DNA of 64,000 bases from Synechococcus sp. AG-686-F08 (GTDB lineage: Bacteria; Cyanobacteriota; Cyanobacteriia; PCC-6307; Cyanobiaceae): the NCBI GenBank assembly GCA_003210315.1, contig QCVQ01000001.1, forward strand, positions 1 through 64,000, read 5' to 3'. The notes under the pieces are model-generated. The model was not told the origin of the DNA. It did no database searches and worked only from the letters and a program-made list of their open reading frames with translations. A program made the position numbers and the translations under genes. This document shows, one piece after another, positions 45,344-53,315 of this stretch. The first letter of the stretch is position 1. Each line of letters begins with the position of its first letter.

Positions 45344-46342
45344 ATGAACTCAATTTTTAGTCGTGTGCTTCAAGGTGGTGCTGTTGCTGGACTTTTGCTT
45401 GGGGGCGATCTTGCTTCTCAACCTGTTCGAGCTCATGGATCACATGGAGGTGGTGGAGAGCAATTGCAACCGGGCGAATTCAAACTAAGCCCCATAATCA
45501 CCCTTGAGGGTCATGGTGGTTTCGAGAATAATTTGGAAAACCGTCCCCAGCATTACGCCATTGACGGCATGTTCGGAATGGTTATGGAATGGGGACTAGA
45601 GAATGAAGGGAGCTTTGCGATCGAGGCTTCCTTTGGTCCGGCATTTGTTTGGGGAGAATCCGAACATTTCTATGGAGCTGTTCATGTTGATGAACACGGC
45701 GATCACGATGATCATGCAGGCCATGACGACCACGACGATCACGATGACCATGACGATCACGATGATCATGCAGGCCATGACCATTCAGGCGGAACCAAAT
45801 GGAAGCGAACAGATATAAAGGGATTTCTACAAGCTCGTTATCAGCCCAATGATCGATTGTCCATATCAGCGAAGTGGATGCCTTACTTCGAGATTGGCAG
45901 TGCAGAATCAAACGTGGGTATGAAAAACGAAGTTGGCGCTACCGTCGTCTATGCCTTCGGCGATGGTGATGTGAACTTCGCTTTGGGTGATGGTCTTGAA
46001 TCTGTGATTGACGGCGTTTTTGTTTCTGTTGAAAATCGAACTGGCTGGGATACTGAAGGCACCTACTTGGGCAATTACACGGATACTTGGCTTGGATTCG
46101 GCTTTTTTGTTGACCAGCTCAACGTGACTCTTACTGGAGGACCCCGGTTCTACTCACCTGGTTCATATTCTGGACTCTCTCAAAGGACAGATTGGGGTGG
46201 TGAGTTAGGGATGGAATATCCACTTGCAGAAAGTGTGGTGTTATTTGCTCATTGGAAGCCCATCTACAGCACCGCAGGTGGAGAAGGCTGGGGTAAGGGC
46301 TGGAGTCATCATGTGGGGACTGGTGTGAGTTTCAGTTTTTAA
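45344..46342 (+). CDS. Exported His/Asp-rich, barrel-like protein, putative metal-binding outer-membrane protein
   Basis: Signal peptide; EHGDHDDHAGHDDHDDHDDHDDHDDHAGHDHSG tract; C-terminal VGTGVSFSF ending in aromatic. Confidence 0.7.
   Translation: MNSIFSRVLQGGAVAGLLLGGDLASQPVRAHGSHGGGGEQLQPGEFKLSPIITLEGHGGFENNLENRPQHYAIDGMFGMVMEWGLENEGSFAIEASFGPAFVWGESEHFYGAVHVDEHGDHDDHAGHDDHDDHDDHDDHDDHAGHDHSGGTKWKRTDIKGFLQARYQPNDRLSISAKWMPYFEIGSAESNVGMKNEVGATVVYAFGDGDVNFALGDGLESVIDGVFVSVENRTGWDTEGTYLGNYTDTWLGFGFFVDQLNVTLTGGPRFYSPGSYSGLSQRTDWGGELGMEYPLAESVVLFAHWKPIYSTAGGEGWGKGWSHHVGTGVSFSF
45701..45781 (+). repeat. Short tandem/duplicated repeat encoding the H/D-rich tract
   Basis: 27-nt unit GATCACGATGATCATGCAGGCCATGAC at 45701-45727 and 45755-45781, separated by GAC/CAC/GAT-type codon repeats. 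Confidence 0.8.
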
Positions 46343-52113: not shown

Positions 52114-53185
52114 TCAATCTAATAAGGCATTTTCGATTCTTTCTGTTTCTCCATCTCGTTCCATTCCTAGTAGTTCAATATTAAGTGGGTTTCTTAATGG
52201 ACTACCCATGGGTAGTACGAAGCCATAGGTTTGAATAGCCAGAGTAAAGTTTGCTAGTTTTAATTTGCTCTGTTTATTCTCTTTGAGGTAGTGGCGTAGA
52301 GGTGCTGCGTCAAAAATAATTCCCTCAACTTCTCCTTGTTTTAGCTTTTTGATCCCTTCATTTAAGTCTTTTGTTAAGACTGGGTTGATTTCATATAACT
52401 TCCCCCATCTCAGGCTTGTCGTACCCTCTACAACAGCAATTTTTTTTCCTCTTAAATCTTCTTTGTTTCGAATTGCTGAAGGAGCCAGCTCCGCGAGAGA
52501 CAAGGTAAATGCCGATGCTAGTCCTGCGGTGATTGATGAGACGGCTACAAGTGACATCACCATCCAAATTCCTGCAATGGTGCGACCAGTTCTTGAAAGT
52601 GGTGCTCGATCGCCATATCCGACTGTGGTGAGTGTGACGAGCCCAAACCACATTCCATTTCCAACACCATGTAAATACTGGCGTGGAAATTGTTCGGTGT
52701 TTTTTCTTCGTTCAGCTAGCCAAATCAGATTGCCAAAAATGAATAGAAGCGAAACAAGGATGCCAACCGATGACAATGCGGCCCACCCAATAAATGGTCG
52801 TAGACGTGTGATGAGTCCTGGTGGCTTCTGAGGGATCAGTAAGCCTTCATAGCCATGAAAATAGGGTTGCGTAAAATCAATTTTGGGGTTTGCTAATCGA
52901 TTTGGAGTAATGCTGATTGGACCGATTGCTAGATCAACCGTGCCATCAGCAACAGCTTTAATGCTCGCATTGGTGTTTGGCTGAACAACAAATTTGTAGG
53001 GTTGATCGAGACGATTTGCGACGTCCCTCCAAATTTCAATACTGATCCCGCTCAGTTCGCCATCTTTATCCATGACAAACGGAGGAGATCCACTCACTCC
53101 TACTTCCTACTCGCAACTCCCTAGCCACTGTCTGAATGGGCAGTGAAATTAGGACGATTCCAGTAAGCAAAAGCGTTTTTAACAC
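52114..53185 (-). pseudogene. GluR0-like ligand-gated K+ channel (SBP_bac_3 plus pore TTVGYGD), interrupted by a 7-bp tandem duplication
   Basis: Intact mature ORF 52114-53097; signal-peptide part from GTG at 53185 (VLKTLLLTGIVLISLPIQTVARELRVG) is in another frame; TCCTACT x2 at 53098-53111 accounts for the shift. Confidence 0.7.
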
Positions 53186-53201: not shown

Positions 53202-53315
53202 TCAGCCCCTTTCGAGCCGGCGAATAATAAAACCCATGGCCATTAGAGATCCAAGGAGTGCAAGTAGCAATGCCAGGGTCATTGTTCCAATGCGTTTGTC
53301 TTCACAGACTCTCAT
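53202..53315 (-). CDS. Very small TM protein
   Basis: 37 codons: MRVCEDKRIGTMTLALLLALLGSLMAMGFIIRRLERG. Confidence 0.35.
   Translation of the reverse strand: MRVCEDKRIGTMTLALLLALLGSLMAMGFIIRRLERG

Follow-up and report, generated by a model that had tools for sequence, protein, structure and literature searches.

A GluR0-type potassium channel gene of marine Synechococcus is interrupted in the genome of Synechococcus sp. AG-686-F08 by an exact 7-bp tandem duplication that shifts its reading frame. A recent loss of function in the channel gene of the sequenced cell is the reading that we favor, with a probability of roughly 0.55; this figure, like the weight given below to an artefact, is a judgement and not a calculation. 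What has been found is a fresh frame-breaking duplication in one genome, which is either an ordinary mutation or an amplification error. As a mutation it would be a clean, dated case of the inactivation of a bacterial glutamate-receptor channel. The gene is recurrently broken or absent across picocyanobacteria, and the physiological role of the channel was demonstrated only recently, in Synechocystis. The case also bears on practice: a frameshift in an amplified single-cell genome calls for independent confirmation, and several conserved genes of this assembly are broken. The features of the locus, within the 64,000-nucleotide stretch of DNA analyzed here (the window), are the following.

53098..53111, minus strand: exact 7-bp tandem duplication (AGTAGGA twice), frame-shifting; single copy in the inspected relatives that cover it
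53066..53185, minus strand: truncated frame, homologous to the intact N-termini of relatives
52114..53097, minus strand: remaining part of the channel gene (GluR0 type), 327 aa, with an open frame that begins at a GTG inside the gene
53205..53282, minus strand: 26-aa single-helix mini-ORF MTLALLLALLGSLMAMGFIIRRLERG, conserved, helix predicted

The minus strand reads AGTAGGA AGTAGGA from 53111 to 53098 (plus strand TCCTACTTCCTACT) in the context ...GAGTTGCGAGTAGGAAGTAGGAGTGAGTGG..., which confirms the exact duplication described in the first-pass annotation. The frame that opens at GTG 53185 translates to VLKTLLLTGIVLISLPIQTVARELRVGSRSEWISSVCHG and runs for 39 codons before a TAA at 53066-53068. 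It comprises the signal peptide (GTG 53185 to about 53121), the first strand RELRVG and 12 out-of-frame residues. The S1 half of the ligand-binding domain, M1, the K+ filter TVGYGD, M2 and the S2 half are encoded in 52114..53097. In an alignment with seven close relatives, the 7 extra bases at the junction are present in the window alone. With a single copy, the frame agrees with that of every relative inspected, in nucleotides as in protein, and the earlier proposal that removing one copy restores the frame holds. The break also lies where it had been placed, at the junction of signal peptide and mature protein, precisely at strand 1 of the ligand-binding domain. The tandem by itself is unremarkable because chance alone produces a few exact 2x7 tandems in such a window (3.1 expected from shuffles, 6 loci observed); the notable aspect is its place within a conserved gene and not the repeat as such. 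The channel is the only clear break within a real gene on the 134.8-kb contig, which carries 113 orthologue-like ORFs. Further frame flags raised on this contig were dismissed: some come from upstream start extensions, as in glpX, one is a spurious ORF, one is a late stop, at residue 276 of 287, and one marks an ORF that the end of the contig truncates.

Judged by its sequence, the gene is a GluR0-type K+ channel, that is, a prokaryotic ionotropic glutamate receptor of group 1. This identity, first read from the letters alone, is borne out by domain matches, by a sequence match in the PDB and by a fold match. A profile search placed SBP_bac_3, Lig_chan and Ion_trans_2 above cut-off in the open part of the gene, and the best PDB match of the window protein is the ligand-binding core of Synechocystis GluR0 (1iit/1ii5, 6.5e-36). 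For the nearest intact relative (L035, 354 aa) the match to GluR0 (2e-40) begins at residue 22 and takes in the strand that directly precedes the break. Modelled with AlphaFold2 (mean pLDDT 77), L035 has 1ii5 as its top fold match (target TM 0.92), with a predicted signal helix at 2-13, strand 1 at residues 24-28, M1 at 122-156, P at 174-185 and M2 at 196-229. The gene thus encodes a family 3 solute-binding domain into which two transmembrane helices and a pore loop are inserted. The K+ filter TLTTVGYGD of the window protein is invariant among the aligned relatives. R94 (ISITxxR, in S1) and D290 (FD, in S2) are invariant in the alignment and both are found in the window protein; an Arg in S1 and an Asp in S2 serve the alpha-carboxyl and the alpha-amino group of the ligand, respectively (PMC2950845).

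GluR0 itself (slr1257 of Synechocystis PCC 6803) is a glutamate-gated K+ channel with the same signal peptide, the same M1-P-M2 segment splitting the ligand-binding domain, the filter TVGYGD and the conserved ligand residues Arg in S1 and Asp in S2. In contrast to GluR0, the window copy is frameshifted at the junction of signal peptide and strand 1, and the intact relative L035 is well diverged from GluR0 (26% identity in structural alignment). Domain order and filter are also those of the group 1 prokaryotic ionotropic glutamate receptors with a K+ filter (PMC2950845). In all junction-covering relatives inspected, one frame holds both the signal peptide and the whole first half-domain. In the window the 7-bp duplication separates the two, and because it breaks the frame the locus is a broken allele of the GluR0-type family. 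Some group 1 members have no signal peptide, and pseudogenes have been proposed as one reason (PMC2950845), whereas in the window a specific duplication accounts for the missing signal peptide.

Twenty-nine relatives were compared at the junction, of which 28 cover it (L029 is cut by its contig end). The junction between signal peptide and ligand-binding domain is open, without the extra 7 bases, in 28 of 28, and it is also open in the distantly related filamentous cyanobacteria Okeania, Hydrocoleum and Trichodesmium. The first-pass annotation had raised the case of orthologues that begin at the internal GTG without a signal peptide. The comparison disposed of it: every junction-covering relative reads through from the signal peptide. 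GTG 53097 is no natural start because relatives have GTG, GTC, GTT, ATT or ATC there, and a natural start was excluded with the position falling, as a Val codon, inside a protein with a signal peptide. It corresponds to residue 28 in the alignment and follows the invariant L24, R25 and G27. A product begun at this GTG would therefore drop the signal peptide and strand 1 with all three residues, which speaks against the idea that the locus still yields a functional channel, either signal-less after re-initiation at GTG 53097 or through a ribosomal frameshift across the junction. An AGGA in the first repeat copy (53108-53105) stands at good spacing, 7 nt before the GTG, and the 327-aa frame is open and has been under purifying selection up to now. 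However, the GTG corresponds to a variable Val codon in relatives, GluR0 function requires the soluble domains (PMC13099474) and no slippery sequence was noticed at the junction, and we regard continued function as very improbable.

The nearest intact relative has GCGAGTGGGAGTG where the window has GCGAGTAGGAAGTAGGAGTG, with GTG in L035 vs GTA in the window. The duplication most likely came after a synonymous GTG to GTA change, because the two repeat copies of the window are identical and both carry GTA. The L035 contig (PAFA01000044.1) is filed under a Phycisphaerae MAG (MED835) and carries a Synechococcus channel locus at 88% DNA identity; it is probably contamination of that MAG.

Selection was measured by counts of private changes and by pairwise dN/dS. 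Pairwise omega between the window and its close relatives is 0.07-0.09. The window branch has 25.5 synonymous and 11.5 nonsynonymous private changes and its sister G013 has 26 and 6, a difference that is not significant. Sequence decay has not begun, since the private changes of the window are mostly synonymous and similar to those of G013, and the persistence of purifying selection on the window branch makes the duplication very recent, as had been suggested. These counts indicate that selection acted on the channel gene until very recently, or that it still does.

In the reading that we favor, the normal exported GluR0-class K+ channel gene of a marine Synechococcus would just have been inactivated by a short tandem duplication, presumably an ordinary product of replication slippage or of a similar small-duplication event. 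The duplication would lie in the cell's own chromosome. The ribosome would make a 39-residue peptide with a signal sequence and then stop, and the channel body would not be made. If translation were re-initiated at GTG 53097, the product would have neither signal peptide nor first strand and should not assemble, so that channel function would be absent.

The channel gene is broken in other genomes as well. In the complete genome G023 it has a 1-bp deletion before the pore, and its private changes (38 synonymous, 40 nonsynonymous; sister 35 and 9; p=0.001) point to relaxed selection and mark this copy as an old pseudogene. In the same region (L060, G023:C1:1340000-1345000) the adjacent metallophosphoesterase gene is reduced to its last 66 codons. 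G162 (L099) has a 1-bp deletion exactly at the selectivity filter, and G258 (L101) has two frameshifts in the gene. G023, G162 and G258 are single-contig genomes and their frameshifts are independent. G148 was considered as a further broken copy and dismissed; what looks like a split there is a gap of Ns in the scaffold, one edge of which is repeated. No channel match at E<=1e-30 was found in 236 of 300 family genomes, or in 146 of the 196 good ones, and two control genes, looked for across those 300 genomes, gave no adjacent frame-split pair among the matches listed. Being frameshifted in three complete genomes and matchless in most of the family, the channel gene is dispensable and repeatedly lost. 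Deletion of gluR0 in Synechocystis leaves a viable strain that outgrows the wild type on high-KCl agar (PMC13099474).

In phase-variable genes one normally finds a repeat tract whose length differs between relatives. The relatives inspected have a single non-repeated unit at the junction, where their sequence also differs, and the window has two copies only, with no homopolymer or multi-copy array. The breaks in the other genomes lie at unrelated positions and involve one base or a similarly small change, so there is no conserved switch element, and a conserved switch was dismissed. These observations go against the suggestion of the first-pass annotation that the duplication is a reversible slipped-strand (phase-variation) switch, in which the loss of one copy restores the channel frame. 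An exact loss of one copy would indeed bring back the frame of the relatives, and frameshift-and-restore events are known in other bacteria (PMC8339072). The frameshift-indel silencing and scars of that report share with the present case an indel that breaks the frame and that a second one could compensate; in contrast to them, no restored scar is seen here, and the duplication is known from one genome. Reversion by losing one copy is possible for any tandem duplication and there is no sign of an evolved switch, which we consider highly improbable. The literature on reversion rates of 7-bp duplications yielded nothing usable. It is a long shot that marine Synechococcus is under ongoing positive selection to lose the channel, with a revertible short duplication giving population-level reversibility.

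The source assembly is 58.85% complete in 64 contigs, and the sample is one genome of its species. It resembles the Synechococcus single-cell genomes found among the relatives and is itself probably an amplified single-cell genome. This type of assembly and its low completeness leave room for the possibility that the duplication arose in whole-genome amplification of the single cell or in assembly, and that the gene is intact in the cell. A wider sample of the assembly, 535 kb with 194 ORFs of 150 aa or more and 195 kb of coding sequence, holds further breaks, three of them in conserved genes. In ribD a C run has gained a base (8C to 9C), and so has a G run in a D-Ala-D-Ala dipeptidase; a beta-lactamase-like hydrolase has one base too many in a C run close to its start. 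The fourth break is a TGA in a large membrane protein. We read these four names from the sequences and not from database matches.

C3 ~31170 (L136), C6 ~36005 (L142), C6 ~17973 (L141) and C9 ~21520 (L148): other frame breaks in the assembly (G000)

These other breaks are probably amplification or assembly errors. The assembly has some 2-3 breaks for every 100 kb of coding sequence, a rate near the 3.0 indels per 100 kb published for a picocyanobacterial single-cell workflow (PMC6122165). Because other breaks occur at about the single-cell indel rate, the assembly error that the first-pass annotation had listed weighs more than could be seen from the letters alone, and the lack of relaxed selection on the window copy is what would be expected of a gene that is intact in nature. 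However, each of the other indels is a one-base slip within a run of C or G, and an exact 7-bp duplication is of a different class; it is the only break seen in the assembly that is neither a homopolymer slip nor a point nonsense change. The site is also mid-way in the largest contig, and a random error would rarely hit a gene of which three finished genomes carry independently broken copies. At this divergence, short insertions that keep the frame are common (14 in 192 ORFs). A scan of viral contigs for conspecific sequence found nothing. An artefact is a possibility to be taken seriously, though we lean away from it and toward a recent loss of function in the sequenced cell.

Two smaller features of the window were also recorded. 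The mini-ORF MTLALLLALLGSLMAMGFIIRRLERG is just upstream of the channel gene and its stop is about 20 bp before the start of the channel. It is found in 38 of 79 genomes searched across picocyanobacteria, also in the channel-less G018 and G035, and matches no Pfam or NCBIfam family above cut-off. It is probably an independent small membrane protein. Additionally, a tandem repeat region at 45689-45790 is built of a 27-bp unit, CGATCACGATGATCATGCAGGCCATGA, that looks His/Asp-rich and may encode a metal-binding stretch.
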